This document shows, one piece after another, positions 4,715-28,951 of a stretch of DNA of 64,000 bases. The DNA lies in contig JBFMHE010000021.1 of NCBI GenBank assembly GCA_040752355.1, forward strand, positions 1 through 64,000, read 5' to 3'. The notes beneath the pieces were generated by a model. It did no database searches and was not told the DNA's origin. It saw only the letters and a list, made by a program, of their open reading frames with translations. Numbering within the stretch: the first letter of the stretch is position 1; each line of letters starts with the position of its first letter. A program made the position numbers and the translations under genes. This DNA comes from Nitrospirota bacterium (GTDB lineage: Bacteria > Nitrospirota > Thermodesulfovibrionia > Thermodesulfovibrionales > Dissulfurispiraceae).

Positions 4715-4836
4715 GTCTCCTCCCTCCGGAATTGTGCTATCATTATAGGTACAAAGCCGTAAGTACGGCAGCAATGCTCTGGTACAAGGGTAGCAGGATG
4801 CCGCAGCACTGTCAATCGGCCGAGGATACTCCGCAA

Positions 4837-4866
4837 TTGATTTTTGATGAAAAGGTTTCTTATAGT
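4837..4866 (+). promoter_or_regulatory. Sigma-70-type promoter of the 4874 gene
   Basis: TTGATT (4837-4842) and TATAGT (4861-4866) are separated by 18 bases. The -10 ends seven bases before the ATG at 4874, which has no Shine-Dalgarno, so the transcript may be leaderless. Confidence 0.5.
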
Positions 4867-4873
4867 ACATTCC

Positions 4874-5332: not shown

Positions 5333-5427
5333 CATCATTGAGGAAGAGGGCGTCCGGAGTATCATTCCGCGAGGTGGCTCCGGGTGTCCCTTTGTATTTA
5401 CCCGCAGTACCGCCAAAGGAGAAGAAG

Positions 5428-6012: not shown

Positions 6013-6035
6013 CAGAAGATCCGGATAACACCATT

Positions 6036-6073
6036 AAAGAAGGGAGCCCGAGACTTCTCCGGCTCCCTTCTTT
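6036..6073. terminator. Bidirectional terminator between pal and the Ehr operon
   Basis: Thirteen-base perfect arms (AAAGAAGGGAGCC and its complement at 6061-6073) close on a 12-base loop that can pair further. A and T runs flank both sides, and it sits between two convergent stop codons. Confidence 0.85.
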
Positions 6074-6087
6074 ATAAAGCTCCCTGC

Positions 6088-6603
6088 TTATCGCTTCTCT
6101 TCTATCGCCTTCATGATGCCGCTCAGGATGGCGAAGGGATCCGGAGGACAACCGTGGACAGCGACATCGACGGGGATCACCTTACCGATGCCGCCCCGGG
6201 AGGCGTAGCTTTCTCCGAAGATCCCGCCATTGCAGGCGCAATCCCCCACGGCAACCACCAGTTTAGGAGCGGGCGTCGCCTCGTAGGTCCTCCTGAGGGC
6301 TCTCTCCATATTATGTGTTACGGGACCGGTAACCAGGAGCATATCCGCGAAGCGCGGCGAAGCGGTGAAACGGATGCCGTACCGTTCGCAGTTGTAGAGG
6401 GGATTATTGAGCGCATGGATCTCGAGCTCGCACCCGTTGCAGGAGCCGGCATCCACCTGCCGGATCGTGAGGCTCTTCCTGAACCGTCTTTTGACCGCCT
6501 CCTCGAGCCGCCCGCCCGCCGCTTCGATTCGGGCGTTTATCTCTCGAGGCATAGCTTCCGTGACAATGCCGGTACGGAGTATCTGATACAGTATTCTCAT
6601 CAT
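6088..6603 (-). CDS. Ehr-type complex small subunit (NuoB/HyfI-like)
   Basis: The 171-residue protein belongs to the NuoB/HycG/HyfI 20-kDa family, which carries the [4Fe-4S] cluster (N2 equivalent) next to the large subunit. Its cluster cysteines are in GSCNGCELE, GDCACNGG and HGCPPDP, so the electron-transfer site looks intact. The ATG at 6603 overlaps the TGA of the upstream large-subunit gene (ATGA), as expected for translational coupling, and GGGGAA lies just before it. It is the last gene of the operon and ends at the terminator shared with pal. No ferredoxin-like NuoI/HyfH gene accompanies it, so the electron donor is unknown. Confidence 0.9.
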   Translation of the reverse strand: MMRILYQILRTGIVTEAMPREINARIEAAGGRLEEAVKRRFRKSLTIRQVDAGSCNGCELEIHALNNPLYNCERYGIRFTASPRFADMLLVTGPVTHNMERALRRTYEATPAPKLVVAVGDCACNGGIFGESYASRGGIGKVIPVDVAVHGCPPDPFAILSGIMKAIEEKR

Positions 6604-8171: not shown

Positions 8172-9616
8172 TTCAGTATCTCCACCGCTTTATGGAACCA
8201 CTGGTTGAGGAACCCCGGCATATACAATCCGAGTGCGAGCACGAGGGCCATATGCAGGAGCACCGGGATATGGGCCGCCTTCACGGGTTTCTGGTAAGAG
8301 GGCACTTCCCCCGATACCATTGCCTGCGCCTTCCTGAAGAGAGCGGCAAAGGCGACCCCGAGGCCCAGGAGGAGGAACGGCGTCATGAGCGGCGCGTCCT
8401 TGATGGTTGCGGTCAGGATAAGGAATTCGCTCGTAAAGACGCCGAACGGGGGCATGCCCGCGATCGCCATCACGCCGAGCATGAACCCCCAGCCGACGCG
8501 GGGATTCCCCCTGATGAGCCCCCGTATCCTGTCCATCTCCTGCGTCCGGTGCATCTGGGACGCGTGGCCGACGGTGAAGAAGATCGAGGACTTCGCCAGG
8601 CTGTGGACGAGCATATGGAGCAGCGCGCCGTAGGTCGCGAGGGGACCGCCCAGTCCGAACGCGAAGGTGGCTATGCCCATATGCTCTATCGACGAGTACG
8701 AGAACATCCGTTTTATGTCCTTCTGCCTGAGCAGGGAGAAGGCCGCGACGAGGATAGAGAGAATGCCGAAGCCCATCATGATATCCCCGGCGTGGTGGGA
8801 CTGCGTCGAGCCGTCTACGAGGGCCTTGCAGCGCACCAGGGCGTAGAGGGCGATGTTCAGGAGCAGACCCGAGAGCACAGCCGAAATCGGGGTCGGGCCC
8901 TCGCTGTGCGCATCGGGAAGCCAGTTGTGGAGCGGGACGAGCCCCACTTTCGTGCCGTACCCGACCATCAGGAAAACAAACGCCAGCGAAAGCACGGTCG
9001 GCTCGAGCTTGTCGCTCAATTGGATCAGGTTCGTCCAGAGGAGGGCCTCGCCGCCCTCTCCCAGCACCCGCTCGGCGGCGAAGTACAGAAGGACGGTGCC
9101 GAAGAGCGCCTGCGCAATGCCGACCCCGCAGAGGATGAAGTATTTCCACGCCGCTTCGATCGCGGTCGGCGTGCGGTAGAGCGAGACCAGCAGGACGGTC
9201 GAGAGCGTGGCGAGCTCCATGGCTATCCAGAGGACGCCGACATTATTCGTGAGGAGGCAGAGGAGCATGGCGAATATGAAGAGCTGGAACATGGCGTGGT
9301 AGAAGCGCATCCGCCAATGGCCGACCCTGCCGTGCTCCCGCTCCGTTCTCATGTACCTCCTGCTGAACACGGCGGTGGTCATCGAGACGAACGAGGTGAG
9401 CACCGCGAGATAGACGCTGAAGGCGTCCACGAAAAAGAACTTCTTGCCGGCCAGCAGAGGGCCGCCTGAATACACCTCGAGCGCCAGCAGAACCCCTGCA
9501 ATGAAGGTGGCTGCAGAGCCTGCTATATTGATCTCGGGCGCGCGTCTCCTGTCCCCGACAAAGGCGAGGACGAGCGCGGCAAGGAGCGGGACACCGAGGA
9601 GCACCAGCAGCATCAT
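8168..9616 (-). CDS. hyfF: HyfF-like proton-pumping membrane subunit (NuoN/NuoL family)
   Basis: This 482-residue antiporter-like (proton_antipo_M) subunit has about 13-14 membrane segments. Family landmarks are the charged residue in the helix LLTNNVGVLWIAMELATL (the Glu is the pump-channel residue), TKVGLVPLHNWLPDAHSEGP with the conserved Lys and the PDAHSEGP loop, KDIKRMFSYSSIEHMG and the broken helix GMPPFGVF. All ionisable residues expected for proton translocation appear to be present. It lies second to last in the operon, overlapping the large-subunit gene by four bases and following hyfE by six. It presumably couples redox chemistry of the peripheral arm to ion translocation. Confidence 0.9.
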   Translation of the reverse strand: MMLLVLLGVPLLAALVLAFVGDRRRAPEINIAGSAATFIAGVLLALEVYSGGPLLAGKKFFFVDAFSVYLAVLTSFVSMTTAVFSRRYMRTEREHGRVGHWRMRFYHAMFQLFIFAMLLCLLTNNVGVLWIAMELATLSTVLLVSLYRTPTAIEAAWKYFILCGVGIAQALFGTVLLYFAAERVLGEGGEALLWTNLIQLSDKLEPTVLSLAFVFLMVGYGTKVGLVPLHNWLPDAHSEGPTPISAVLSGLLLNIALYALVRCKALVDGSTQSHHAGDIMMGFGILSILVAAFSLLRQKDIKRMFSYSSIEHMGIATFAFGLGGPLATYGALLHMLVHSLAKSSIFFTVGHASQMHRTQEMDRIRGLIRGNPRVGWGFMLGVMAIAGMPPFGVFTSEFLILTATIKDAPLMTPFLLLGLGVAFAALFRKAQAMVSGEVPSYQKPVKAAHIPVLLHMALVLALGLYMPGFLNQWFHKAVEILK

Positions 9617-9622
9617 CTCAGG

Positions 9623-10297
9623 CTACTCCTCCTTCAGCCGCGCCATCTGATCGACATCGAGACTGTCGAAGGTGGTATTGATATGGAAAAAGAAGATGCC
9701 GAAAATAAAGGCGGCGATCAGGATGTCGATGGCTACGCCCAGCTCCACGACGAGCGGCATGCCGTAGGTGGCGCTCGTCGCCGCGAAAAAGAGGCCGTTC
9801 TCCATCGCCAGGAAGCCGATGATCTGGGTGACGGCGTGGCGCCTCGTGATCATCATCAGGAGCCCGATCATGACCGTCGCGAGCGCGATCGCGAGCACCG
9901 AGCGCGTGACGAACGTCGAGAGCTCGCGCACCGGCGCGGTGAGGTGATAGGAGAAGATAACGAGGCCGACGCCGATGAGCATGGTGACCGGCACCTTCAC
10001 CGCCGTCTCGATCTCCTTGCGGATCTTCAACTTGTGGATGAGGACATGCAGGATGTAGGGAAGCAGTATCACCTTGAGCGAGAGCGTCAGCAAGGAGGAG
10101 AGGTAGAGGTGGCGCCTGTTTGCCATGTACCCGACAACAGCCGTGCTGACCGCGAGGAGGAGCCCCTGCCACGCGAAGAGGTGGATGAGACCGTATATTC
10201 TCCGCTGGACCAGCATGCCGAACGCGGTCAAAAGGACCATGGCCGCAAGGAAGTTCACGATCTGCGCCGTCGCCTGTACATCCACCTGTATACTCAT
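9623..10297 (-). CDS. hyfE: HyfE-like membrane subunit (NuoK/MnhC family)
   Basis: The 224-residue protein is entirely membrane-embedded, with about seven segments. It has the HyfE pattern: a short N-terminal helix, RRHLYLSSLLTLSLKVILLPY with the conserved Lys, RRHAVTQIIGFLAMENGLFF with the Glu found in NuoK, and a C-terminal GVAIDILIAAFIFGIFFF. In group 4 hydrogenases this subunit links the pumping subunits. The ATG at 10297 is used because GGAG lies at good spacing; a TTG four codons upstream is possible. It is separated from hyfC by an unusual AT-rich spacer. Confidence 0.88.
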   Translation of the reverse strand: MSIQVDVQATAQIVNFLAAMVLLTAFGMLVQRRIYGLIHLFAWQGLLLAVSTAVVGYMANRRHLYLSSLLTLSLKVILLPYILHVLIHKLKIRKEIETAVKVPVTMLIGVGLVIFSYHLTAPVRELSTFVTRSVLAIALATVMIGLLMMITRRHAVTQIIGFLAMENGLFFAATSATYGMPLVVELGVAIDILIAAFIFGIFFFHINTTFDSLDVDQMARLKEE

Positions 10298-10407
10298 ATG
10301 AAACTCCAAACTCCGAATTCTAAAAAGTTTGTTTTTTGAAAAATTGGTTGTTGGAATTTATTTGTAATTTCATTATTGGAGCTTGGAATTTGCAGTTACT
10401 ATACATA
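10298..10407. other. AT-rich spacer inside the Ehr operon
   Basis: This is 110 bases of low-GC sequence with repeated AATTT/GGAATTT-like words between hyfE and hyfC, where every other junction of the operon overlaps or is shorter than 10 bases. I see no ORF, promoter or terminator in it. The GGAG serving hyfE lies at its left edge. Confidence 0.5.
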
Positions 10408-11358
10408 TCACTCCAATATAAAGTGAGAGAGCATCCCGAGTGTCGCCAGGAGAAACGCGGACCCCAGGAATTCGGTGACCCGGAAGAGCCGCATCTTTGC
10501 GAGGCCGGTCTCGATCAGCACCAGGACGACTCCCGCGAGCCCGAACTTCATGACGAGATAAACGAGGGCGAGCGGCAGCGCCGCACTATTCCCCGCTTCC
10601 GCAATCCCCCACGGAACAAAAGCCGCCGTACCCAGCGCCATGAAGAGAAAGAGCTTCATCATGCCGGCCCATTCGACCAGGGCGAGATGCCTTCCCGAAT
10701 ACTCGAGGATCATCGCTTCGTGGATCATCGTGAGCTCGAGATGCGTCGCCGGGTTGTCGACCGGTATCCTGCCGGTCTCCGCCAGGGCGATCATCACAAA
10801 CGCGAGAAACGCAAACGCGAGAGAGGGCCTCAGCACCAGGTGCAGATCGCTCCGGCCGATCACCGCCGCGATCTGCGAGAGCGAGGTAGACTTGCCCGCA
10901 AGCGACATGGTAAAGACCGCCATGAGCATCGCCGGCTCCGCAAGGGAGGCGATCATCATCTCGCGGCTCGACCCCATGCCGCCGAATGCGGTGCCGATGT
11001 CCATGCCCGCCAGCGCGGTAAAGAAGCGCGCAATGGCGAAGAGCGCGACGAGCGCGATGACATCGGCGGTCGCTGCCAGGGGCAGGTCGACCGAGAGGAT
11101 CGGGATGATGCCTCCGGCGAGGAGCGTCGCCCCGAATACGAGATAGGGCGTGAAGCGGAAAAGCCACGAGGCGTTCTCCGCGAGCACCACGTCCTTTGCG
11201 AAGAGCTTCGCGATATCGCTGTAGGGCTGGAGCAGGCGCGGCGAACGGCGGCCCTGCGACCAGCACTTCACCATCCTCACCCACCCCGTAAAGAGCGGGG
11301 CGGCTCCGAGGAGGAGTGCGAGCTGCAGTATCTCTATGACCACCGGCGAACGGTTCAT
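10408..11358 (-). CDS. hyfC: HyfC-like membrane subunit (NuoH family)
   Basis: This 316-residue NuoH/HycD-family protein has about eight membrane segments and anchors the peripheral hydrophilic arm. Family motifs include KCWSQGRRSPRLLQPYSDIAKLF after the first helix, GSSREMMIASLAEPA, and LAETGRIPVDNPATHLELTM with the conserved Glu and Asp residues of the loop beside the quinone or ion entry in complex I. The ATG at 11358 overlaps the stop of hyfB (ATGA). The subunit is of normal length and looks intact. Confidence 0.9.
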   Translation of the reverse strand: MNRSPVVIEILQLALLLGAAPLFTGWVRMVKCWSQGRRSPRLLQPYSDIAKLFAKDVVLAENASWLFRFTPYLVFGATLLAGGIIPILSVDLPLAATADVIALVALFAIARFFTALAGMDIGTAFGGMGSSREMMIASLAEPAMLMAVFTMSLAGKSTSLSQIAAVIGRSDLHLVLRPSLAFAFLAFVMIALAETGRIPVDNPATHLELTMIHEAMILEYSGRHLALVEWAGMMKLFLFMALGTAAFVPWGIAEAGNSAALPLALVYLVMKFGLAGVVLVLIETGLAKMRLFRVTEFLGSAFLLATLGMLSHFILE

Positions 11359-13400
11359 CGCACGAAGAGCAACAGCACGATAATCGTTACGAACGAATAA
11401 ATAAGATACGCCTGGATGCGGCCCTGCTGGAGCCTTCCTACTTTCCTGGATATCCAGAAGCTCACGGTCGCGATCGGCGTATAAAGCCATCCCCATACAC
11501 GGTCGCGCACCCGGAGGTAGTACGTGAGCTTCCGGGGGAAAGCGCTATGGCCGGGCTGCGGGCTCAGCCGGACCAGTTCCTTTACGGTGAAGAGATGACC
11601 GAATATCCTCCGGAACGGCATGGCGAAGGAGGTCCCGTTGTACTGCATCCTCCCGGTGAGCTTTTCGAACCCGCAGTCCCAGATCGGTCCGCGCCGGATC
11701 CTCCCCGGTCTGACATGCAGCAGCAGATATGCCGCAATGACGACTGACATGATGCCCAGCAGCACGATGATCCCGGAGTACGACGCCCGGTCAGGAGCGA
11801 CGGGCGTCAGCCAGAGCCAGCCGTGGGTGCCTGCCGATGCGCTTATGGTAGAGCCCACCAGCTGGACCGGAACGGTGTCGAGCCAGCCGATGACAACGGT
11901 CGGCAGGATTCCGAGGAGCAGACAGGTAGCCGCAGCCATCCCCATCCCTATTCTCATGGACCAGCCGGCCTCGCGGACACGGGGCTTGTGCGGTCCCCGC
12001 CAGTGGCCCAGAAAGGTGATGCCGAAGGCCTTTACAAAAGCGGCTGCGGCAAGCGCGCCGGTAAGGGCGAGCAGAGCAGCGCCCACCGGCATGAGCAGTT
12101 TCAGCAGCGGCGCGGGCAGCGACGGCGAGAGCAGAAAGGCCTGGAAGGTGAGCCACTCCGATACGAACCCGTTAAAGGGCGGCAGCGCGGATATCGAGAC
12201 ACACCCGATGAGGAACAGCACCGAGGTCCACGGCATTGCATGAATGAGCCCCCCGAGCCGCTCCATACTGCGCTCGTTGGTGGCATGCAGCACGGCGCCC
12301 GCCCCCATGAAGAGGAGCCCCTTGAACATCGCATGATTGAGCGCGTGGTACACCGCCGCAGTGAGGGCGAGCGCCGCGATGACCGGCATACGGAACGACG
12401 TGAAGATCATGCAGAGCCCTATGCTCATAAAAATGATTCCGATATTCTCGATGCTCGAATAGGCGAGGAGCCTCTTGAGATCATTCTGCATCAGGGCAGA
12501 GAGGACGCCCACGACCGCGGAAATCAATCCCAGCACCACCACCAGCGCACCCCACCACCAGGGAAAGACCTTGATGAGATCGAAGGTTATCCTGATGACG
12601 CCGTATACGGCCGTCTTGAGCATGACCCCGCTCATCAGGGCCGAGACATTGGAGGGCGCCACCGGATGGGCCTCGGGAAGCCACACATGCAGGGGCATGA
12701 TGCCCGCCTTTGCCCCAAAGCCGAACAGGGCGAGAAAGAACGCCGCCGCTGCCCACCCCTCCGGAAATGTCGACGCACGCATGGCGTCGAAGGTATACCC
12801 GCCGAAGTCCCTGAACCCGGTGGCGAGTCCTGCCATCACCCCGAAGGAGAGCAGGAGAGCGACCGCCCCGACATGCGCGATGACGAGGTAAAGAAACGCG
12901 GCCCTCCTGTTTTCAGGCTTTTCATCCTCGTGCAGCACGAGAAAGTACGAAGCCGCAGCCATCACCTCCCAGGAGATGAGAAAAAACAACGCATCGTCGG
13001 CGAGCACCACCATGAGCATGCCCGCGATGAAGAGGCTGTAAAAGACGAGGAGCCCGGTCACCGGCCGGCGCCCCATGAGGCCCTTGACATAGCCGATGGA
13101 ATAGACGGACACGTACAAAGCGAGCAGGCCTACGGCGGTGAGAAAGAGGCCCGAAAGGGGATCGAGCCGGAGATGGAAGGGCAGGTCCGGAAGGCCGAGG
13201 CCGAGCACCGCCTTTTCGGTCGTACCGCTTCCCACTGCCCCGATGCCCGCTGCAACCGCGCACAACGAGGCGGCGGCAGCGAGCGAAAAACCCGCCTTGA
13301 CCATGATTTCCTGGTGTTTTCTGAAAAGAGGGGCGGAAACCGCCAGCACCAAAAAAAGCAGGAGGGAAAGCGATGCGATATCCAGGGGTGAGAAGGTCAT
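11355..13400 (-). CDS. hyfB: HyfB-like proton-pumping membrane subunit (NuoL family)
   Basis: This 681-residue antiporter-like subunit has about 15-16 hydrophobic segments. Landmarks are the glutamate helix ALFFLISWEVMAAASYFLV, KAGIMPLHVWLPEAHPVAPSNVSALMSG with the Lys and loop motif, NDLKRLLAYSSIENIGIIF, a Lys in the later helix, and LPPFNGFVSEWL. The C-terminus extends past the core with an amphipathic segment and a last anchor helix, as in HyfB/HycC. The four-base overlaps with its neighbours put it first among the membrane subunits, directly behind the HTH-EIIA regulator gene. Confidence 0.92.
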   Translation of the reverse strand: MTFSPLDIASLSLLLFLVLAVSAPLFRKHQEIMVKAGFSLAAAASLCAVAAGIGAVGSGTTEKAVLGLGLPDLPFHLRLDPLSGLFLTAVGLLALYVSVYSIGYVKGLMGRRPVTGLLVFYSLFIAGMLMVVLADDALFFLISWEVMAAASYFLVLHEDEKPENRRAAFLYLVIAHVGAVALLLSFGVMAGLATGFRDFGGYTFDAMRASTFPEGWAAAAFFLALFGFGAKAGIMPLHVWLPEAHPVAPSNVSALMSGVMLKTAVYGVIRITFDLIKVFPWWWGALVVVLGLISAVVGVLSALMQNDLKRLLAYSSIENIGIIFMSIGLCMIFTSFRMPVIAALALTAAVYHALNHAMFKGLLFMGAGAVLHATNERSMERLGGLIHAMPWTSVLFLIGCVSISALPPFNGFVSEWLTFQAFLLSPSLPAPLLKLLMPVGAALLALTGALAAAAFVKAFGITFLGHWRGPHKPRVREAGWSMRIGMGMAAATCLLLGILPTVVIGWLDTVPVQLVGSTISASAGTHGWLWLTPVAPDRASYSGIIVLLGIMSVVIAAYLLLHVRPGRIRRGPIWDCGFEKLTGRMQYNGTSFAMPFRRIFGHLFTVKELVRLSPQPGHSAFPRKLTYYLRVRDRVWGWLYTPIATVSFWISRKVGRLQQGRIQAYLIYSFVTIIVLLLFVR

Positions 13401-14083
13401 TCCGCGGCTCCGAATATCTCCGCCTCTTTCCGCGAGACCATAGCGAACAGCTCGGAAGGCGAGGCATGCTTCAGCGCCAGCATTATCTCCTCCTCTTTCA
13501 ACAGGCGCAGCAGCTTGGCCTGGATCCTCAGGAAGCGCCGCTCGCTCTTGGGGAAGATGAAGAAGAGGGTATCGACCTCCTCGTTATCCAATGCTCCGAA
13601 GGGGATCGGTTCCGCGAGGCGGCACAAGGCTATCGAAGAGAGGGGAGCGGTGAACTCTTTAAACGGCCTCGGGTGGGGAAAGGCGATGCCGTGGCCGACG
13701 GCGGTCGAGCATATATGCTCCCGCTTCATGATCGCATCGAAGAGTCGTCCGGTATCGATCTGCGGGATGCGCGTCTTTATCATTTGGAGGCACGAGGCAA
13801 TGGCCTGCTCCTTCGTCCGTCCGCTTATATGAAAGTAAATGCCGCCTCTTTCGAGGGGCCCGGCAAGGGAGATCGACTCCTCACGGGTAAGAGAGGTGTT
13901 CGTGAGCACTGCCTCACGCGGGAACTCCCGCGTATCCTCCACCCACGAGAGGATCTCCCGCCTGTCGAACCGCCACTGCCCGCCGACCCTGAAGCAGGGG
14001 ATCGTTTCGTTCTTTATCATCCGGTATATCGTCTTCTCCGAAACGTTGAGCATCCCGGCAATATCTTTTACCCGTAAATTCAT
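13397..14083 (-). CDS. HTH (excisionase/MerR-like) - PTS EIIA(Ntr) fusion regulator
   Basis: This 228-residue two-domain protein is probably the regulator of the Ehr operon. Residues 1-55 form a helix-turn-helix of the excisionase/HTH_17 type (VKDIAGMLNVSEKTIYRMIK, then FRVGGQWRFDRREILSWV). Residues 75-225 form a fructose/Ntr-type PTS EIIA domain, with the phosphorylatable histidine in GHGIAFPHPRP. No EI, HPr or sugar permease gene lies in the window. In this family the phosphorylation state is thought to tune protein contacts or DNA binding; here it would link a PTS-Ntr phosphorelay to expression of the complex. Its stop overlaps the hyfB start (ATGA), so it is co-translated with the complex. 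Confidence 0.85.
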   Translation of the reverse strand: MNLRVKDIAGMLNVSEKTIYRMIKNETIPCFRVGGQWRFDRREILSWVEDTREFPREAVLTNTSLTREESISLAGPLERGGIYFHISGRTKEQAIASCLQMIKTRIPQIDTGRLFDAIMKREHICSTAVGHGIAFPHPRPFKEFTAPLSSIALCRLAEPIPFGALDNEEVDTLFFIFPKSERRFLRIQAKLLRLLKEEEIMLALKHASPSELFAMVSRKEAEIFGAAE

Positions 14084-19970: not shown

Positions 19971-20034
19971 ACTCTCACCCTCTTTACTCTATCACGTATT
20001 TTTTCCGCCGGGCCGCCGGTCACCGGCTGATCGC

Positions 20035-21552
20035 TCACCGTGTACCGACCGGCATTCCCAGAAGAGGCCATAGTATAACGACAGCAACACCAATAACCAC
20101 GAGCAGGGCGAGGCTCATCAGCAGCCCGTGCTTGAAGAACTCCCGGGCGGTGAATTGTCCCGATTCGTAAGCGATAGCGTTGGGCGCCGTTCCGATAAGC
20201 AGCATGAAAGGCATCCCCGCGCTCACCAGTGATGTATAAAAGACGATGTCAGGGGAGACCCCCATATAAGGCGCGATTGCCAGCGATACCGGAAGCGAGA
20301 TCGTGACGACCACCACGTTCGTCAGTATATTGGCGGCAACCAGGACGAAAAGCGCTGTGCCGAAAACAAACCCCAGCCAGGGAGCGTTCTGGAACAAGGC
20401 GAGCCACTTCACTGCCATCCATTGGGCTGCGCCCGTCTTCCAGAGGCAGAATCCTATGCTCACGGCGCCCCCGATGAGCAGGATGATATTCCAGGGGATA
20501 TCCTCGAGCTCCTTTACCGTGAGCACCCTGAAGAGAAAGAAGAGCAGCGCTGCACTGAGTATCACGGCAGCCCTGTCCACGCTCTTCAGGGCGGGGACAC
20601 AAGGCTGCAGCGACATAAGGACCACGGTACCGGCCACGATGCCGAGGACGAACCGCTCGGCCCTTGTCATGGGGCCGAGCTGCTGCGCCAATCTCCGGAC
20701 CCGCTCTTTCAGGCCGGGGATACTCTTTTTTTCGGGCTTCAGAAAGAACACGAGATAACCCCAGATAAGGAATACCACGCCCCACCCTATGAGAAACAGG
20801 TATGCCGTAAGCTCGAAGAAATGTATCTCCCTTCCGGTGAACTCCCTGAACAGCGCTGCACCCGCGGCCGCACGGGCGGACCCGAAAAACGTCACGATGC
20901 TCCCGGCGCTCGCCGCATACGCCATGCCGATGAAAAGCGCCTTGCCGAAATTCGTCTGTTTTTCTCCTCCTCCATAGAGGGCGTAAATCGCCATAAGGAC
21001 GGGAAAGACGGTCGCTGCAACAGCAGTGTGGGCCATGATATGGGAGAGCCCTGCGCTCAGCGCCAGGGCGCCGAAGAGAATCATACCGGTCCTTTCGCCG
21101 GCGACTTCGAGCATCTTATAGGCGCAGCGTTTGGTAAGCCCTGTCTTTGAGAACGCAAGCCCGATAATTACCGAACCGAAGATGAACATAACCGATGGAT
21201 CCATGAAGTCCCTGAATGCTTCTCTTGCGGGGCGGATGCCGAACAGGACCTGAAAGACGCCGATGGCAATACTGGTTACGCCGATAGGGACTACTTCAAA
21301 TATCCACCACACCGCGGCAAGCAGAAGCAGGCCGATCGATGCTTTTCCCTCCCTGGACAGGGGGATGGACCGCCCGGCAGGGTCGACGGCGTCCTGCAAC
21401 GGCGGGGCACCGTAGATGAGCAGGAAGGCGGCGAATCCCGCTGCGATAAGCACAACCCTTTTCCGGTCGATCCCGGGTTTCGGAACGGCAATGGTCAACT
21501 CGGGAGGGGCTTCGGGCAAACCGGCATGCATCTTTCTCCGCTTTTCGGTCAT
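20035..21552 (-). CDS. DASS (SLC13) family anion:sodium symporter
   Basis: This 505-residue protein has about 12-13 membrane helices. The N-terminus is a soluble stretch of about 30 residues. The DASS pattern is visible in AVWWIFEVVPIGVTSIA and MFIFGSVIIGLAFSKTGL, but the two canonical Ser-Asn-Thr signatures are altered: the first hairpin reads LSHIMAHTAVAATVFPV and the second LIGTAPNAIAYESG. The changed sites suggest a substrate other than standard dicarboxylates, possibly sulfate or another inorganic anion; this is inference. It lies six bases behind the CBS gene, so the two are surely co-transcribed. Confidence 0.82.
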   Translation of the reverse strand: MTEKRRKMHAGLPEAPPELTIAVPKPGIDRKRVVLIAAGFAAFLLIYGAPPLQDAVDPAGRSIPLSREGKASIGLLLLAAVWWIFEVVPIGVTSIAIGVFQVLFGIRPAREAFRDFMDPSVMFIFGSVIIGLAFSKTGLTKRCAYKMLEVAGERTGMILFGALALSAGLSHIMAHTAVAATVFPVLMAIYALYGGGEKQTNFGKALFIGMAYAASAGSIVTFFGSARAAAGAALFREFTGREIHFFELTAYLFLIGWGVVFLIWGYLVFFLKPEKKSIPGLKERVRRLAQQLGPMTRAERFVLGIVAGTVVLMSLQPCVPALKSVDRAAVILSAALLFFLFRVLTVKELEDIPWNIILLIGGAVSIGFCLWKTGAAQWMAVKWLALFQNAPWLGFVFGTALFVLVAANILTNVVVVTISLPVSLAIAPYMGVSPDIVFYTSLVSAGMPFMLLIGTAPNAIAYESGQFTAREFFKHGLLMSLALLVVIGVAVVILWPLLGMPVGTR

Positions 21553-21558
21553 GGCGCC

Positions 21559-22071
21559 CTAATCCTTCAGGATATCACCCGTCAGTTCCTCGAATATCTC
21601 CACGATCCTGACCATCCCGACAAGCTTCCTCTTGCCGTCCAGGACGGGCAGAAGGGTCAGATCATTGCGCAGCATCACATATGCCGCCTTGGTAACAGGA
21701 TCGTCCGGTCCGACAAAGAACTTTGCCGGGACCATGATCTCGCTCACCGGCCGTTCTGCCGATTCCTTCGACTTGTCCGCATCCCACAGCGAAGAAAGCA
21801 GCGCAGCATCCTCGTCAAGCACCTGGGCTCTGCTCGGCGGCTTCAGGAAGGTCGGCTCCATGCCCCTCAGAATGCTCTTCAGGTTCAGCGTGCCGAGCAG
21901 ATTGTACTTTTCATCGAAGACCAGGATACCCATGGGACTGAAGCACTTTTCATCGCTCGGCATCGTTGCCCTGAATATCCCGATCGCCTGCCTGATCGAG
22001 AACCAGTACGGTATATGGGGAAAGTCGAACACATCGACCATGATGGCGCTGACCACCCGCTCCTGTATCAT
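21559..22071 (-). CDS. CBS-domain pair protein
   Basis: This 170-residue cytoplasmic protein has two CBS motifs: one around residues 8-75 (VSAIMVDVF, then MGILVFDEKYNLLGTLNLKSIL) and one around 110-168 (VSEIMVPAKFFVGPDDPVTKAAYVM, LPVLDGKRKLVGMVRIVEIFEEL). CBS pairs bind adenine nucleotides and often gate a partner transporter or enzyme. With the DASS symporter six bases downstream, a regulatory role on that transporter is likely. The ATG at 22071 follows GGGGG at a good distance; longer in-frame starts upstream have no support. Confidence 0.85.
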   Translation of the reverse strand: MIQERVVSAIMVDVFDFPHIPYWFSIRQAIGIFRATMPSDEKCFSPMGILVFDEKYNLLGTLNLKSILRGMEPTFLKPPSRAQVLDEDAALLSSLWDADKSKESAERPVSEIMVPAKFFVGPDDPVTKAAYVMLRNDLTLLPVLDGKRKLVGMVRIVEIFEELTGDILKD

Positions 22072-22174
22072 AACGAACCCCCTTTCGCCCCCTTCTTCGC
22101 TGCACCACGCACAAGGCCGGCGGGAATACGAATAATGCCCCGGCCTCGGGATACTGCACCATAGCGGTGTTTTC

Positions 22175-22204
22175 ATTATAATGCGCTAAAATTCCAATTA
22201 GCAA
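22175..22204 (-). promoter_or_regulatory. Sigma-70-type promoter of the CBS-DASS operon
   Basis: On the minus strand, -35 TTGCTA (22199-22204) and a consensus -10 TATAAT (22175-22180) are 18 bases apart. This predicts a leader of about 95 bases before the CBS start. Confidence 0.65.
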
Positions 22205-22275
22205 TAGCTATCTTCGCAAGGGTACGCCGCGGCCCCAGGCCGGCAGGATGCATTGTCTTTTTGGGAAAAATACCT

Positions 22276-22283
22276 GATATAAT
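22276..22283 (+). promoter_or_regulatory. -10 element directly before the PEP-synthase-like gene
   Basis: TATAAT (22278-22283) ends five bases before the ATG at 22289. A TTGTCT lies 19 bases upstream. No Shine-Dalgarno precedes the ATG, so a leaderless transcript is likely. Confidence 0.55.
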
Positions 22284-22288
22284 TTCAT

Positions 22289-24844
22289 ATGTTCAATTTT
22301 TTCAAGAAAGGACCTGCCGGGACTCCCCGCGAGCCCGACCGCGGCGAGCTCTTCAGGAAGAAGTACCGTACCTTCCAGGAGCTCCTCGCGCACAACAATA
22401 CGGTGCTCGAGCTCATGGCCGATATGGAAGAGAAGCTTTCCGGAGACTTCCTCTTCGACCGGCAGTATATCAACCGTACGGTCGATGCAACGGTCGGCGG
22501 TGTCCGCAGCATCGTGAACAGCCTGAATGCGCTCTCCGGCAGCGGGTACAGCCTCCTCCATGAGCGGCTCGACACGATAAGCGCCGCGATCAGCAGTGCC
22601 CTCTCCCGCACGGTCGAAATCCCGGTCAGCAGCTACACCGTTCCGTTAGACGAGATTACCAGGGATATGGCGGCGGTCGCGGGCGGCAAGATCGCCAACA
22701 TGGGAGAGATCCGGAACCGCCTGCGGGTGCCCACGCCCGGCGGCTTCGTGATCACCACGTATGCGTACAAGCGCTTCATGGAGCACAACGGCTTCTTCGA
22801 ACGTATCCATGCGCTGCTCAGCGATATCTCCCTCTCGGATGTGGAGGTCCTGGACCGGACGAGCCGGGATATCCAGGAGATGGTCACCGGCGGAACGCTG
22901 CCCGGTGACCTCCTCGCGGAGATTTCCGGCGCAGTCACCCGCCTCTGCAGCGGCAGGGAGAGCCTCAGGGTCTCGGTGCGGAGCAGCGCCCTCCAGGAAG
23001 ACGGCGAGTTCAGCTTCGCGGGACAGTACGCGACATTTCTCAACGTCCCCTGCGCGCTGGTGGTGCAGAAATATAAGGAGGTCATCGCCAGCCTCTTCAC
23101 CCCGCGGGCCCTCTTCTACTACAAGACGAAGGGGTTCAGCGAGAGCGACATGGCCATGGCGGTAGGGGTGCTGCCCATGATCGAAGCGCAGTCGGGGGGC
23201 GTCATGTATTCGCTCGATCCGAACAACCCTGACCGGGATACGGTTATCATCAGCGCCATCATGGGGCTCGGCAAGTGTGTGGTCGAGGGGATCGTGACTC
23301 CCGAAACCTATATCCTGTCGAAACATCCCGAACCGGATATCGTCGAGAAGAAGATCCCCCTGCAGGAGACGATGCTCCTCTGCAGGCCGGACGGCGGCCT
23401 GGACGAGATCCTCGTCCCCGCCGAGATGCGCGGGAAGCCGTCCCTTTCGGATATCCAGGTAAAGACCCTGGCTCACTATGCCCTCATCCTCGAACGCCAC
23501 TACCGTTATCCCCAGGATATCGAGTGGGCGCTCGACAAGAATTTTCAGCCCTATATCCTCCAGACGCGGCCGCTCAGGGTCTTCACCGGGCAGAAGGCGA
23601 AGCCCGTTCCTCCCCGGATCAAGGGATACCATGTTCTCATCGACAAGGGGGTCATCGCCTGCAAGGGCATCGGCATCGGCAGGGCCCATATCGTACGGAG
23701 CGACGAGGACCTCGCCTCCTTTCCCGAAGGCGCCGTGCTCGTGGCGCGGCATACGTCGACGAAATTCGTAACGGTGATGAACAGGGCGAGCGCCATTATC
23801 ACCGATGTGGGCGGGGTGACCGGCCATATGGCATCCCTGGCCCGGGAATTCCAGGTGCCGGCGATCCTCGATACCGAGAATGCGACCGAGGTGGTAAGCC
23901 ACGGACAGGAGATCACCGTGGATGCCTTCAACTGCAACGTCTACGAGGGCCGCGTCAGCGAGCTCGTCGATTTCGTAGACCGCCGCGAGGATCCCCTCAA
24001 AGATACGCAGCTCTTCAGGACCCTCGAGCGGGTGCTGAAGCTGATCGTTCCTCTCAATCTCGTCGACCCCGAGGCGGATAACTTCACGCCCGAGCACTGC
24101 GCGACCCTGCACGATATCACGCGCTTCGCCCACGAAAAGGGCATGTACGAGATGTTCACCATCAGCGACGCGTCGGACGTGAAGCGGGGCGCGGGAGTGC
24201 GGCTGGTCGCGGGCATACCGACGGATATCTATGTGCTCGACCTGGGCGGCGGCATAGAAGAGACGGCGCAGGGGCTCAAGAAGATCATGCCCTCCCACGT
24301 CACCTCCATCCCTCTCCAGGCCTTCCTGAAGGGCCTCACCTCGATGCGGTGGCCCGATGCCGCTCCCCTCGACGCGAAGGGCTTCATGGGGATGATCGCC
24401 CATACCGCGACCATTCCCGAAGCGGACCTGGCAAAGGCGGGAGAGAACAGCTTCATCTTCATCTCGAATAAATACATGAATTTCGCCCTGAGGCTCGGCT
24501 ACCACCTCTCCACGGTCGAAGCCTATGCAGGAGATACCGTCAATAACAACTATATAAAGTTCTTTTTCAAGGGGGGCGGCGCCGTGCGGGACCGCCGGAT
24601 GCGGCGGGTCAGGCTCATCACGGAGCTCCTCAAAGAGATGGACTTTACCGTAACCGTTACGGATGACATCATCGACGCCATGCTGACGAAGTACAAGCGC
24701 TCGACGATCGAGGGGAAGCTGGAGGTCCTGGGCAGGCTTACGGCCTACACGAAGCAGCTCGACATGGTCATGTACAACGACGCCGTGACGGACATGTACA
24801 TAAACGAGTTCATTTCGAAATACCTGCGGAAGCCTTCAGCGTAA
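22289..24844 (+). CDS. PEP-synthase-like ATP-grasp/phosphohistidine protein with unusual C-terminus
   Basis: This 851-residue protein has a helical N-terminal region (1-120), then a PPDK-type ATP-grasp domain (about 130-430: VAGGKIANMGEIRNRL, VRSSALQEDGEFSFAGQ, PQDIEWALDKNFQPYILQTRP) and a swivelling phosphohistidine domain with TDVGGVTGHMASLAREF, where His513 would be phosphorylated. The C-terminal 310 residues are not the PEP/pyruvate TIM barrel: its usual catalytic Cys and IGTNDL motifs are absent. So it should make a phospho-His from ATP, but the acceptor is not pyruvate in the usual way. The layout recalls dikinase-like phosphotransferases such as rifampicin phosphotransferase, with a different acceptor domain. 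Length and order are intact, and it is monocistronic. Confidence 0.8.
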   Translation: MFNFFKKGPAGTPREPDRGELFRKKYRTFQELLAHNNTVLELMADMEEKLSGDFLFDRQYINRTVDATVGGVRSIVNSLNALSGSGYSLLHERLDTISAAISSALSRTVEIPVSSYTVPLDEITRDMAAVAGGKIANMGEIRNRLRVPTPGGFVITTYAYKRFMEHNGFFERIHALLSDISLSDVEVLDRTSRDIQEMVTGGTLPGDLLAEISGAVTRLCSGRESLRVSVRSSALQEDGEFSFAGQYATFLNVPCALVVQKYKEVIASLFTPRALFYYKTKGFSESDMAMAVGVLPMIEAQSGGVMYSLDPNNPDRDTVIISAIMGLGKCVVEGIVTPETYILSKHPEPDIVEKKIPLQETMLLCRPDGGLDEILVPAEMRGKPSLSDIQVKTLAHYALILERHYRYPQDIEWALDKNFQPYILQTRPLRVFTGQKAKPVPPRIKGYHVLIDKGVIACKGIGIGRAHIVRSDEDLASFPEGAVLVARHTSTKFVTVMNRASAIITDVGGVTGHMASLAREFQVPAILDTENATEVVSHGQEITVDAFNCNVYEGRVSELVDFVDRREDPLKDTQLFRTLERVLKLIVPLNLVDPEADNFTPEHCATLHDITRFAHEKGMYEMFTISDASDVKRGAGVRLVAGIPTDIYVLDLGGGIEETAQGLKKIMPSHVTSIPLQAFLKGLTSMRWPDAAPLDAKGFMGMIAHTATIPEADLAKAGENSFIFISNKYMNFALRLGYHLSTVEAYAGDTVNNNYIKFFFKGGGAVRDRRMRRVRLITELLKEMDFTVTVTDDIIDAMLTKYKRSTIEGKLEVLGRLTAYTKQLDMVMYNDAVTDMYINEFISKYLRKPSA

Positions 24845-24863
24845 GCGCATCCCTCCGTTGCAG

Positions 24864-25292
24864 TTACTGCTGTGCCTCTCTGCTCTTCAACTGCTCCCGG
24901 AGCTCTTCGTTTTCCTTCTGGAGCTTCGACCACTTCAGCGCTTTGTCGATCGTCAGGAGTATCTGCTCCTTGCGGAACGGCTTCGTAATGAAGTCGAAGC
25001 AGCCCTTCCCCATCGTCTCCATGGCCGATTCGAGGGTCGCATACGCGGTAATGATGATGACGGGGATATCCTTTCCCTCGGCCTTGAGCGCATCGAGCAG
25101 CTCCGATCCGTCGAGGCCCGGCATCTTCAGATCGGTGATGATGAGATCGTAGTCATCCCGCTTGACGAGCTGGAGGGCCTCCAGCGGGTTATTGGTGGTC
25201 GTCACTTCATAGGGGGTCTTCTCCCTGATGATCAAGCTGAGCAGCTTGAGCATGTCAGGTTCGTCATCGACGATAAGCAGCTTCTCGGGCAT
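24864..25292 (-). CDS. Response regulator with receiver domain and coiled-coil tail
   Basis: The protein has 142 residues. The receiver (1-118) shows LLIVDDEPD, the acceptor Asp in LIITDLKMPGLDGSELL, the Thr in IITAYA and the Lys in FITKPFRKEQI. The last 25 residues form a Glu/Lys-rich coiled coil (SKLQKENEELREQLKS) that could mediate dimerisation or docking. No DNA-binding domain follows. The ATG at 25292 has GGAGG six bases upstream. It lies 138 bases behind the sensor kinase 25431-27650 on the same strand and is its likely partner. The 3' end converges on the PEP-synthase-like gene with a 19-base gap. Confidence 0.88.
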   Translation of the reverse strand: MPEKLLIVDDEPDMLKLLSLIIREKTPYEVTTTNNPLEALQLVKRDDYDLIITDLKMPGLDGSELLDALKAEGKDIPVIIITAYATLESAMETMGKGCFDFITKPFRKEQILLTIDKALKWSKLQKENEELREQLKSREAQQ

Positions 25293-25430
25293 AGAGTCCT
25301 CCATTACGTTTTCAGGCAGATACGTTCCTTACCAAGCATATCCGTATTCTATCACAAGCTACTCCCCCTCCTTCACCGCTCTCGGTCCTCACTCCGCTTT
25401 CCCCACGTATGATCTACCCCGATGAGTGCC

Positions 25431-27650
25431 TCAGGTAATTGCCGGCAGGGTGACGATGAAGGTCGTCCCCGTCTCCCTCGCCTCATCGGCGGTCTTTGTC
25501 CTGAAGGTAATCGACCCTCCGTACTTCGTGACGATGCCGTAGCTGACCGAAAGCCCCAGCCCCGTCCCCTCTCCCACCTTCTTGGTCGTAAAGAGGGGGT
25601 CGAAGATCCTCGAGCGGTGCTCTTTCCTGATGCCGGTGCCGGTATCGGCAATCCTCACTTCGATGCCCCGTCCCTCGTCAACGACCATCCTGGTAGCAAC
25701 GGTGAGCACGCCGCCCTTCTTCATGGCGGCGACGGCGTTATTGATGATATTGATGAACACCTGCTGGAACTCCTCGGGCTCCCCTCGTGCCGCGGGGAGA
25801 TCCCGCGCCAGGTTTTTCACCAGTTTTATTTTATTGACCGAGAGGGTGTTGCCGACGACCGCCAGCACCTCCTCGATGCTCTTGTTGACATCCACATTTT
25901 CTTCACGGTGCTCGGTACGGCGGGCAAAGCTCAGGAGGTTCTCGACCACCCTCTTGGCATTCAGCCCCTGCTTCTCGATCGTCTTCAGCATATCGTGCTC
26001 GTCGGAGCCGGTCGGCGCCTTCTCGAGGAGCAGGTCGGTGAAGCCGAGAATGATCGCGAGGGGATTGTTGATCTCGTGCGCCACCCCGGCAGCGAGCGTT
26101 CCCATCGAGGCGAGCTTCTCCGTATGGCACATCTGCTCGTGCATACTCATCCGCTCGGTGATGTCCCTGCCGATGCCGAGCACTTTATGGATCCCTCCCG
26201 ATTCATCGACGAGGCCGCTGAAGTTGATGCTGAGCCACGAAACCTGCTCCCCTCTCCTGACCGAACAGGTCACCTGCTTGCTGGTGTTCGTATCGAACAC
26301 TTCGTAGATCGCCCTGACGACGAGCTCCGCGTTCTCGCAGGAGAAGAGGTCGGCGATCGGCTCCCCGAGCACCTTGTCGGGCCGCTTCTGGAAGAACTGG
26401 TAGCCGTACCGGTTCATCGAGAGGACATGGCCCTCTCTGCTGAGCGTGAAGATGATGTCGTCGGCATGCTCGACGAGCGACCGGTACTGGTATTCGCGCT
26501 TCCTCAGCTCGCTCGTCTTTTCCTGCACTTCCCGTTTGAGCGAGCTCGACCACCGGAGCATGATGCTCATGATGAGCAGGCCGGACGAGATGATGACGAG
26601 TATGCCCACCCCCTGGAGCCAGAACTGGCGGACCTGTATGCTGTGGATGACCCCCTCGACCTCGCTCACCGGGGCCACGACCGCCACGGACCAGAGCGAG
26701 GCCTCTCGCGTGGCGTCGAGCCTGATAGGAGAGTAGGCGATCAGCTTCCTCATCTCCTCCTCTTTTCCCCGGTGCCATCCCGAAATGTACCAGCTCGTCC
26801 CCTCCTGCCCCTTCAGCATGCGCTCCTTCTGTATCTCGTTGATGCGCGCATAGGAGATGGTCGGTTTCCGCTCCTTCCGCACCTCGAAGGCGTTCTTGCC
26901 GACGAAGACGCGTTCCGGGTGATAGATGAAGGTGCCGTCATGGTCGATCACCCAGGAGTAGCCGGTCTTGCCCGACTGTATTCCCTTCATCACCTTTTGG
27001 GCGAGCGCCGTCACGTCGACGGCAAAGATCAGGACCCCGGCGAATTTGTTTGTCGGGATGCGGTGCGACTCATCGACCGAGCTCTGCCATACGGGAGTGG
27101 CCATCTTCATGATAAGCCGCTGCCCCTCGCCGCAGTCCACAAACGCGATGTCGGACATGGCGATCGTGCCCTTGTTCTCTTTCTTCCTGGCCCACTCGAG
27201 ATAGTCCAGATCATCATGAGCCAGCGCATCGATCCGGTACGCATCGGCATCGGCGAGATGGACCCGGTACGTCTTCTCTTCCACGTACTTGATCCTCACT
27301 CCTCCTTCGTCCTTTATGCTCGAGAAGGTGATCATCATCCGCTTGCCCATGAACACCGCCTCCGAGTACTGCATTGAGGGAGAGAGGCTGAGCAGCAGGA
27401 GCTCGCGTCTGAGCAGGTTGAGGCTGTTCTGAATCTGGCTCGCCGCGTGCCGCGAGAGGACCAGCTGCTGCTGGTTGAAGTCCTCGAGCACGACCTCCTT
27501 CACCTTCTGCGCCGACATCCAGCCGAAGAGCAGAATCATGCCGAGGAAGAGAGCGCTGATGATAAGGGTGAGCTTTTTGTAATGCTTCAGGTAAATGCTG
27601 TGCCAGCATCGCGCAAGGTGCTCGGTTATGGCGGCGAGGAGGACCTTCAT
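25431..27650 (-). CDS. Membrane sensor histidine kinase with dCache and PAS domains
   Basis: This 739-residue kinase has a first membrane helix at about 28-45, a periplasmic double-Cache-like sensor of about 300 residues (SGKTGYSWVIDHDGTFIYHPE is the typical membrane-distal repeat), a second helix near 345-365, a PAS domain (EYQYRSLVEHADDIIFTLS through GIGRDITERM), a HisKA box [10 protein letters not shown] and a full HATPase (FINIINNAVAAM, DTGTGI, FDPLFTTKKVGEGTGLGL). Such dCache sensors bind small organic ligands. A six-codon ORF with a strong Shine-Dalgarno overlaps its start, so initiation may depend on translational coupling. The partner is probably the receiver at 24864-25292. Confidence 0.9.
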   Translation of the reverse strand: MKVLLAAITEHLARCWHSIYLKHYKKLTLIISALFLGMILLFGWMSAQKVKEVVLEDFNQQQLVLSRHAASQIQNSLNLLRRELLLLSLSPSMQYSEAVFMGKRMMITFSSIKDEGGVRIKYVEEKTYRVHLADADAYRIDALAHDDLDYLEWARKKENKGTIAMSDIAFVDCGEGQRLIMKMATPVWQSSVDESHRIPTNKFAGVLIFAVDVTALAQKVMKGIQSGKTGYSWVIDHDGTFIYHPERVFVGKNAFEVRKERKPTISYARINEIQKERMLKGQEGTSWYISGWHRGKEEEMRKLIAYSPIRLDATREASLWSVAVVAPVSEVEGVIHSIQVRQFWLQGVGILVIISSGLLIMSIMLRWSSSLKREVQEKTSELRKREYQYRSLVEHADDIIFTLSREGHVLSMNRYGYQFFQKRPDKVLGEPIADLFSCENAELVVRAIYEVFDTNTSKQVTCSVRRGEQVSWLSINFSGLVDESGGIHKVLGIGRDITERMSMHEQMCHTEKLASMGTLAAGVAHEINNPLAIILGFTDLLLEKAPTGSDEHDMLKTIEKQGLNAKRVVENLLSFARRTEHREENVDVNKSIEEVLAVVGNTLSVNKIKLVKNLARDLPAARGEPEEFQQVFINIINNAVAAMKKGGVLTVATRMVVDEGRGIEVRIADTGTGIRKEHRSRIFDPLFTTKKVGEGTGLGLSVSYGIVTKYGGSITFRTKTADEARETGTTFIVTLPAIT

Positions 27651-27667
27651 AGCGTTCCATCGTTCAT
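27647..27667 (-). CDS. Six-codon leader ORF overlapping the sensor kinase start
   Basis: ATG at 27667 is preceded by AGGAGGA with seven bases between, and reads MNDGTL then TGA. The TGA overlaps the kinase ATG at 27650 as ATGA. The kinase ATG has only a weak GGA of its own. This looks like a translational-coupling leader; it is too short for any protein function. Confidence 0.4.
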   Translation of the reverse strand: MNDGTL

Positions 27668-27743
27668 CGCGGTATCCTCCTTATGATAAGGAAAGCTCCG
27701 GCAAACTATCAAGCGCCGGCGCTTCAGGACCGCGCCAAAGAAG

Positions 27744-27771
27744 AGGGCGGGAGAGTGGATACTCCCGCCCT
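27744..27771 (-). terminator. Hairpin between the sensor kinase and UspA genes
   Basis: Ten-base perfect arms AGGGCGGGAG/CTCCCGCCCT enclose an 8-base loop, 20 bases past the UspA stop at 27791. On the minus strand CTTCTTT follows. It terminates the operon 31024 to 27791. Confidence 0.7.
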
Positions 27772-27790
27772 TCGGTTATCTCACCCCGTG

Positions 27791-28228
27791 CTACAAGGGG
27801 AGCTTTACGACACAGACGGAGCAGGGGCTGTGGGTGACCACGCTCGAGGCGACGCTCCCGAGCCTGAGCCGTGATGAGGGGCCGAGCCCTCTGCTGCCGA
27901 TAATGATCAGGTCCGCCTTCTCCCGTTCGGCATAATCGACAATGGTGTCGGGAATGGAGGTCGAGTCGACCACGAGGTTGCATGCCGAAGAGAGCTTATC
28001 CTTTTCCAGCACTGCTGAGGCCTCCTGGATGACCGCTTCAGCCCGCTTGCTCATGCGCGCCTTCACCCGCTCCCGCTCCCCGGCCGTAATCTCGAGATCG
28101 ACCGCTTCGATGTAGGGCACGATGCTGATCAGGCAGACCTTCGCGTTCTTCGCCTTCGCATAGTCCGCGGCGAGCTTCACTGCTTCTCTCGAATGGATGG
28201 AGCCGTCAACCGGCACTATTATCTTCAT
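27791..28228 (-). CDS. Single-domain universal stress protein
   Basis: The UspA-family protein has 145 residues and all the ATP-binding features: IIVPVDGS at the N-terminus with the conserved Asp, and G-x2-G-x9-G-S (GSRGLGPSSRLRLGS) near residue 112. It is soluble and cytoplasmic and probably forms a dimer that binds ATP. AGGAG precedes the ATG at 28228. It closes the GntR-TauE-membrane protein operon and is followed by a terminator. A UspA gene also closes the second TauE module, so the association recurs. Confidence 0.9.
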   Translation of the reverse strand: MKIIVPVDGSIHSREAVKLAADYAKAKNAKVCLISIVPYIEAVDLEITAGERERVKARMSKRAEAVIQEASAVLEKDKLSSACNLVVDSTSIPDTIVDYAEREKADLIIIGSRGLGPSSRLRLGSVASSVVTHSPCSVCVVKLPL

Positions 28229-28249
28229 CGCTTCTCCTTTGGCGCGTGA

Positions 28250-28951
28250 TTAGTGTTTCGCCTTGCTCGTCGAAAGTCCTATACCCTCGAACAGGTAGTA
28301 GATGGCAAAGCCCCACCACATGGTATAGGCGACGTAGAAGATCAGCAGCCCCGTCATGAGCCCCGCCTTTTCGGTGACCTTCACTGCCGGGATGCCGTAG
28401 AAGTTATGCGACGTCTCGACCGCCTTCTTCATGACATCCGAGACGATCTTGGCCTCCTCGATCTTCCCGTCTTTCTTGAGCTGCTTGTCGAGCACCTTCA
28501 TCACATTCCACCAGGTCACCATCACCTCTTTCTCGTCGAAGCCGTAGCGGCCCGAGACTGCGGCCCCGTCGTTCTTGAACATGGCGTCGGAGTCTTTGAG
28601 GGCAGCGTCCATGAGCCTGCCGAGATCGGCGTTTATCTTCAGCTCCGCGCCGGCGGCCTCGACCTGTGCGCCGGCGGTGCTGAGCACTTTGACCGCCTTG
28701 TCAGCCTGCTCGGGCTTTTCGAGCGCCACCGTCGTCGCTATGCCGGCACCCATGAACTTCTTGTTGCTCTCCGCGACCTTCGGGATGAAATAGGACGAGC
28801 CTTTGGAGAGCTTGTTGAACATATCGTCCGAGAAGACGAGCCCGTTCTTGCCGTCGCCGAAGACCGGCGAGAAGATGAGGATGAGCACGCCGAAGAACGA
28901 GAGGGCGAGGAACATCCCGATCGACAATGATTTCTTATTCGTCGTTGCCAT
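28250..28951 (-). CDS. Hypothetical two-pass membrane protein linked to TauE
   Basis: The 233-residue protein has a membrane helix at about 10-32, an extracytoplasmic helical domain of about 160 residues rich in Lys, Ala and Asp, and a second helix near 205-225 (GLLIFYVAYTMWWGFAIYYLF). No cysteines or cofactor motifs occur. I do not recognise the family. Its stop is 21 bases before the UspA start and its own start lies directly behind the TauE/SafE gene. This points to an accessory subunit or periplasmic sensor of the exporter. Confidence 0.7.
   Translation of the reverse strand: MATTNKKSLSIGMFLALSFFGVLILIFSPVFGDGKNGLVFSDDMFNKLSKGSSYFIPKVAESNKKFMGAGIATTVALEKPEQADKAVKVLSTAGAQVEAAGAELKINADLGRLMDAALKDSDAMFKNDGAAVSGRYGFDEKEVMVTWWNVMKVLDKQLKKDGKIEEAKIVSDVMKKAVETSHNFYGIPAVKVTEKAGLMTGLLIFYVAYTMWWGFAIYYLFEGIGLSTSKAKH

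Follow-up and report, generated by a model that had tools for sequence, protein, structure and literature searches.

A gene of a Nitrospirota bacterium encodes a protein, named PEPSL here (PEP-synthase-like phosphohistidine enzyme), in which the ATP-grasp and swivelling phosphohistidine domains of a PEP synthase are followed by a conserved C-terminal domain (CTD) that is unlike the PEP/pyruvate barrel. The gene lies in the window, which is the whole stretch of DNA that was analysed (64,000 nucleotides, positions 1 to 64,000 of contig JBFMHE010000021.1, assembly GCA_040752355.1). We favour the reading that PEPSL transfers phosphoryl groups from ATP to His513, that its CTD is the acceptor domain and binds a small anion, and that the enzyme acts as effector of a transport/sensor module; we put the probability of this reading at about one half. 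The boundaries of the open reading frame were exact (ATG at 22289, stop at 24842-24844), and the gene is made up as follows.

22289-24844, plus strand: PEPSL gene, 851 amino acids plus stop
22334-22618, plus strand: N-terminal domain, residues ~16-110, a helical hairpin with helices at 18-49, 58-83 and 89-105
22634-23608, plus strand: ATP-grasp domain (PPDK_N), residues 116-440, with K134, R231, E237, E412, Q425 and R427 invariant
23624-23956, plus strand: swivelling phosphohistidine domain (PEP-utilizers), residues 446-556
23825-23827, plus strand: codon of the predicted catalytic His513, in TDVGGVTGHMAS
23981-24841, plus strand: CTD, putative acceptor domain, residues 565-851, matching no known family
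24098-24136, plus strand: CTD motif C604-x-T606-x-H608-D609-x-x-R612-x-x-H615-E616
24548-24583, plus strand: second conserved CTD segment, N754-Y755-I-x-F-x-F-x-G762-G763-G-A765

PEPSL has the ATP-grasp and swivelling His domains of PEP synthase (PpsA, TIGR01418) in the same order, and in an alignment of 440 columns it is 33% identical to the PEP synthase encoded by its own genome. PEP synthase, which converts pyruvate and ATP to PEP, AMP and Pi, differs in having the PEP/pyruvate barrel (Arg/Glu/Asn-Asp/Cys motifs), where PEPSL has the CTD, and in lacking the added N-terminal hairpin. Pfam matched PPDK_N at residues 130-440 (E=2.3e-88) and PEP-utilizers at 478-547 (E=6.8e-21), with nothing significant beyond residue 547, while NCBIfam TIGR01418 (PEP_synth) covered residues 119-574 alone, with positions 4-469 of its 784, and its score of 360.5 bits fell short of the equivalog cut-off, 739.75. 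PDB matches, both by sequence and by structure, stopped at about 555-580. An AlphaFold2 model of full-length PEPSL (69 sequences, mean pLDDT 86.3) aligned with the PEP synthase of N. meningitidis (2OLS) over residues 115-555 (Z 40.2), as well as with the grasp and swivel domains of rifampin phosphotransferase (RPH), and a full-length family profile aligned with the genome's own PEP synthase across grasp and swivel alone (E=2.5e-66). Homology to PEP synthase thus ends at about residue 556-574. The family keeps the PEP synthase order but swaps the last domain, and by the two features tested (barrel and cut-off score) it is not a PEP synthase.

Both catalytic domains appear intact, as the initial annotation had held, since the six ATP-grasp residues were invariant across 69 homologues and His513 was retained in 68 of them. 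The N-terminal domain also had near-invariant positions (F29, L33, N36, L40 and D45); it had no Pfam match, and its profile matches in the PDB were only to coiled-coil-like chains.

The same annotation had the barrel replaced by 310 residues devoid of its motifs. The replacement stands but the length does not: the swivel domain takes in residues 541-556 as well, so that the CTD proper begins at ~565 rather than ~540 and comprises 287 residues. Full-length homologues in other Nitrospirota, with the CTD covered, were 50-62% identical through the entire protein, which indicates a conserved domain and not debris. Mean column identity of the CTD was 47% (83 sequences). In 69-83 sequences from the two main phyla, C604, T606, H608, D609, R612, H615 and E616 were invariant or nearly so, as were G682, H739, Y755, G762, G763, R769, R773 and D825. 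More distant paralogues kept H608, D609, R612, H615 and E616, with Y755, R769 and C604 variable. Judged by these alignments, the CTD is a conserved domain with its own near-invariant motif and a GG-R-R region, and has not decayed. In a predicted helix (607-627), H608, D609, R612, H615 and E616 occupy positions i, i+1, i+4, i+7 and i+8, and so would lie on one face. This face is likely a binding or catalytic site, and possibly binds a metal. An invariant Cys/His/Asp/Arg/His/Glu motif of this kind is more usual at catalytic or ligand sites than on docking surfaces.

By homology, we infer that the ATP-grasp domain would phosphorylate His513 and release AMP and Pi as by-products, probably through a pyrophosphoryl transfer like that of PEP synthase and RPH. 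The swivel domain would then take the phosphoryl group from the ATP-grasp site over to the CTD, where the Cys/His/Asp/Arg/His/Glu cluster may bind and activate the acceptor with the aid of R769/R773, H739 and the GG loop; a small anionic metabolite is the likeliest acceptor. Intact catalytic residues together with the invariant CTD motif support the earlier proposal that something other than pyruvate would be phosphorylated in a dikinase-type reaction. Also in favour are the position of the CTD, which stands where the second-substrate domain would be, and the presence in this genome of a normal PEP synthase and a PPDK.

Recruitment of these domains to other acceptors has precedents. RPH combines ATP-grasp and a phosphohistidine swivel with an acceptor domain for a substrate other than pyruvate, and carries out dikinase chemistry that yields AMP and Pi; its acceptor domain is central and its His domain C-terminal (PMC4844700), whereas in PEPSL the His domain is central and the putative acceptor domain C-terminal. 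Neither sequence profile nor fold search listed a match between the CTD and RPH chains, including the RIF-binding domain. In the phenolic dikinases HpeHI and CreHI and in phenylphosphate synthase PpsAB, ATP-grasp/swivel pairs have been recruited to new small molecules, and grasp and swivel may occupy separate chains (PMC12167813); a third, 24-kDa subunit of unknown function stimulates phenylphosphate synthase (PMC6114531). These two-chain enzymes have an RPH-alignable acceptor domain fused before the swivel, to which the PEPSL acceptor domain showed no detected relation, while PEPSL is a single chain of different order, yet has grasp-less relatives (see below). PPDK and PTS enzyme I share the swivelling His domain with PEPSL, but they are PEP/pyruvate users with a PEP barrel and no CTD, and PEPSL has no such barrel. 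Discovery of the acceptor would reveal a new phosphotransfer reaction and correct central carbon annotations in sulfate reducers.

The neighbours of PEPSL in the window, all of them conserved in relatives, suggest a setting for such a reaction.

20035-21552, minus strand: DASS/SLC13-type sodium:anion symporter, 505 amino acids
21559-22176, minus strand: CBS-domain protein, 205 amino acids, one CBS repeat above cut-off, divergent from PEPSL
24864-25304, minus strand: receiver-only response regulator, 146 amino acids, convergent with PEPSL
25431-27650, minus strand: dCache-PAS-HisKA-HATPase sensor kinase, 739 amino acids

In Nitrospirota the usual order was DASS symporter, CBS protein, often a GntR/UTRA regulator, and PEPSL, followed on the opposite strand by the receiver-only regulator and the dCache-PAS kinase. 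In Desulfobacterota the DASS, CBS, PEPSL, kinase and regulator genes were consecutive and co-directional, and some PEPSL and kinase genes overlapped. Sensor kinase and receiver-only regulator were both found within 4 kb at 26 of 44 family loci and at none of 18 PPS/PPDK loci (Fisher P about 7e-6). Such P values serve for orientation only: the neighbour HMMs were derived from genes that flank family members, which inflates the contrast to some degree, and the loci have a common ancestry. Over the same distance, DASS (19/44) and CBS genes (20/44) were likewise enriched at family loci and absent from the 18 PPS/PPDK loci. This association is consistent with a module of an anion symporter, a CBS protein that could sense AMP/ATP, a Cache sensor kinase and a receiver-only regulator, the last of which would most likely contact the enzyme protein rather than DNA. 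Such a module may exemplify a two-component system with an enzyme, and not a transcription factor, as its output.

Other genes recurred nearby, namely TauE/SafE-type exporters, universal stress proteins (Usp) and LCIB-type carbonic anhydrases. The last adjoin the DASS symporter at several Nitrospirota loci (L037:411-1151, L038:641-1396), which hints that the transported anion is bicarbonate or a carboxylate. Some family loci carried MshEN and DUF202 proteins (L140:8974-10179, L132:11862-13001); MshEN domains are able to bind c-di-GMP.

The family is widespread in bacteria of the sulfate-reducer type. A scan of one-per-species genomes with HDI[TLI]RFxHE gave at least 575 confirmed loci, the best 80 of which were chiefly from Nitrospirota and Desulfobacterota, with a few from Bacteroidota and Zixibacteria bins. 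With a CTD profile, members were found in 55 of 198 Nitrospirota genomes, in 78 of 198 genomes of Desulfobacterota (the phylum of Desulfobulbus elongatus), with up to 12 copies per genome, and in 3 of 100 genomes from the class of one Bacteroidota bin. The isolate D. elongatus DSM 2908 has seven copies, which rules out a binning artefact. More than a quarter of the Nitrospirota and more than a third of the Desulfobacterota genomes searched thus carry a family that current models match only as "PEP synthase-like", and its place beside anion transporters and environmental sensors suggests an unrecognised small-molecule or signalling phosphotransferase. A literature search, with subscription papers largely outside it, returned no description of the family.

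The genome of the window has three members, of 851, 1065 and 1061 amino acids, besides its ordinary PEP synthase and PPDK. The two longer paralogues (C1, in L024/L138, and C8, in L025/L137) carry a C-terminal extension of ~200 amino acids that weakly resembles concanavalin/LamG-type domains, which is unexpected in a cytoplasmic enzyme. The C1 paralogue (L138:7260-10454; region 4257-13982) is flanked on one side by the PPDK gene of the genome, and on the other by genes for a phosphonate-binding-type protein, a sensor kinase and a receiver-only regulator. Family genes of unlike sequence were frequently found in tandem or close together (L040, L048, L082, L095, L104, L132, L133, L134 and L174), as if two versions cooperate.

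In every intact member inspected, the CTD followed the swivel domain. Two related species of one genus encode proteins of 543-547 amino acids that consist of the N-terminal domain, the swivel domain with its His, and the CTD, without ATP-grasp. Both genes adjoin a sensor kinase gene, and one also a gene for a receiver-only regulator. The dN/dS values between the two proteins (0.14 for the swivel, 0.17 for the CTD) indicate purifying selection on both domains and therefore functional proteins. Glu616 is replaced by Gln in both. Retention of swivel and CTD under selection after loss of the ATP-grasp domain marks them as the functional core pair, in line with the favoured reading, and indicates that use of ATP in cis is not always needed and that another protein can supply the phosphoryl group. 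On the other hand, grasp-less members and a member with H513Y (L068:4288-6852) mean that the full ATP cycle is dispensable in some proteins, which counts against a transferase. The genome bin with H513Y has a second copy that keeps the His (L075). A third grasp-less case, more truncated (L129), may be decaying.

A possible but doubtful alternative is that PEPSL is a protein phosphotransferase, an ATP-fuelled phosphorelay in which the phosphoryl group on His513 is given to, or taken from, an Asp of the receiver-only regulator (or is given to the CBS protein or the transporter), while the CTD docks or regulates. The strong link of the family to sensor kinases and receiver-only regulators, frequently transcribed in the same direction, fits this, as do the grasp-less proteins near sensor kinases (one with a response regulator), which on paper resemble an HPt-type relay partner. 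Several copies per genome are also usual for signalling genes, and the numbers found here (up to 12), with the kinship to two-component genes, fit a signalling protein as well as they fit a metabolic transferase. However, the invariant CTD motif looks like a catalytic or ligand site and less like a docking surface, the C8 paralogue in the same genome has neither sensor nor regulator adjoining, and we know of no protein acceptor for PPS-type swivel domains. A more specific version, more doubtful again, is a phosphohistidine relay built from PEP-synthase parts and powered by ATP that serves a two-component system as partner or effector; the regulator of that system would exchange phosphoryl groups with, or switch, the swivel/CTD protein and so set the uptake of an anion (sulfate, dicarboxylate or bicarbonate). 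If correct, this would be a PTS-like regulatory system with ATP in place of PEP.

It is unlikely that the CTD is regulatory or sensing only, and that a separate protein, phosphate or water receives the phosphoryl group. The sensor-rich neighbourhood (CBS, Usp, Cache kinase) would agree with a sensing domain, but PEPSL has no other candidate domain to hold an acceptor, the CTD occupies the second-substrate position, and it stays together with the swivel when ATP-grasp is lost.

Sequence searches with the CTD gave no match in Pfam, NCBIfam or, by profile, the PDB. An AlphaFold2 model of the domain (83-sequence alignment, mean pLDDT 82.4) predicted N-terminal helices, a mostly antiparallel sheet (721-761) and a beta-alpha-beta-beta-alpha end, rather than a (beta/alpha)8 barrel. 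Foldseek against the PDB returned no match at E<=0.001 (best E 0.011, 2plg). A BFVD match to a phage G protein (E 0.002) was at noise level, and nothing was concluded from it. The same applies to the VIA matches, led by the MotA C-terminal domain (Z 7.0) and followed by red chlorophyll catabolite reductase (Z 6.5) and coproporphyrinogen oxidase (Z 6.2); Z 7.0 is the level expected between unrelated folds, and such weak scores do not prove a new fold.

That the C-terminal part is instead a strongly diverged, still catalytic PEP/pyruvate barrel, making PEPSL an aberrant PEP synthase, is very improbable: one short similarity of the CTD segment VPLNLVDPEADNFTPEHCATLHDITR to a PPDK motif (hhalign E=0.019, a single PPDK) weakened with a PPDK barrel profile (E=0.074, probability 0.8%), no relation was seen to a PPS barrel profile (E=0.22; both barrel profiles from related genomes), the phosphate-binding Arg of the barrel corresponds to Asn590 and its other motifs are missing, and the model is not a barrel. 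As a positive control, the PPS and PPDK barrels found each other at E=4.3e-30. The fold search that the initial annotation had named as a possible refutation was negative, and its view of a replaced barrel is well supported.

Several further candidates were considered and set aside. A role in defence was dropped, as PADLOC did not match the PEPSL protein, and an Rfam scan of 20000-28500 gave no match. Control by the PEP synthase regulatory protein at Thr511 was rejected, with PF03618 absent from the genome and Thr511 variable among homologues. The best plasmid matches finish by residue ~596 and are ordinary PpsA. Four Desulfobacterota members flagged "1 TAG" for pyrrolysine have ordinary stop codons, with no PylS above cut-off, and the seeming fusion in L168, an open frame of 1833 aa, resolves into an ordinary family member preceded by what appears to be an antisense open frame. 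Split or short members (L130, L131, L169, L172 and L173) appear to result from frameshifts or from contig ends, while a 253-aa fragment (L035) and a stand-alone N-terminal domain (L142:2452-2820) look like deletion relics. In the genome of the latter, enzyme body and regulator are gone, apparently by one deletion, and the relic lies between intact kinase, GntR, CBS and DASS genes.

PEPSL stands alone on its strand, with the CBS and DASS genes divergent and the regulator and kinase genes convergent, in keeping with the monocistronic gene described before; the suggestion of a leaderless promoter also gained from comparison with relatives.

22253-22283, plus strand: promoter-like element, TTGTCT at 22253-22258, a 19-nt spacer, and an extended -10, TGATATAAT, with TATAAT at 22278-22283

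The TATAAT ends 5 nt upstream of the ATG, and the full TTGTCT/extended -10 pattern occurs once in the window. Among 32 Nitrospirota family genes tested, 21 had a TATAAT-like box 3-9 nt upstream of the start (17 perfect), compared with 10 of 141 for the remaining genes at these loci and a rate of 13% in shuffled upstream sequences. From its position, the PEPSL box would place the transcription start on the A of the ATG or on an adjacent nucleotide, giving a leaderless mRNA. All three perfect boxes among the control genes belonged to the neighbouring kinase gene, where TATAAT lies 5-6 nt upstream (L037:7773-10016, L038:7288-9531, L051:7275-9488), and this sensor kinase gene may be leaderless too.
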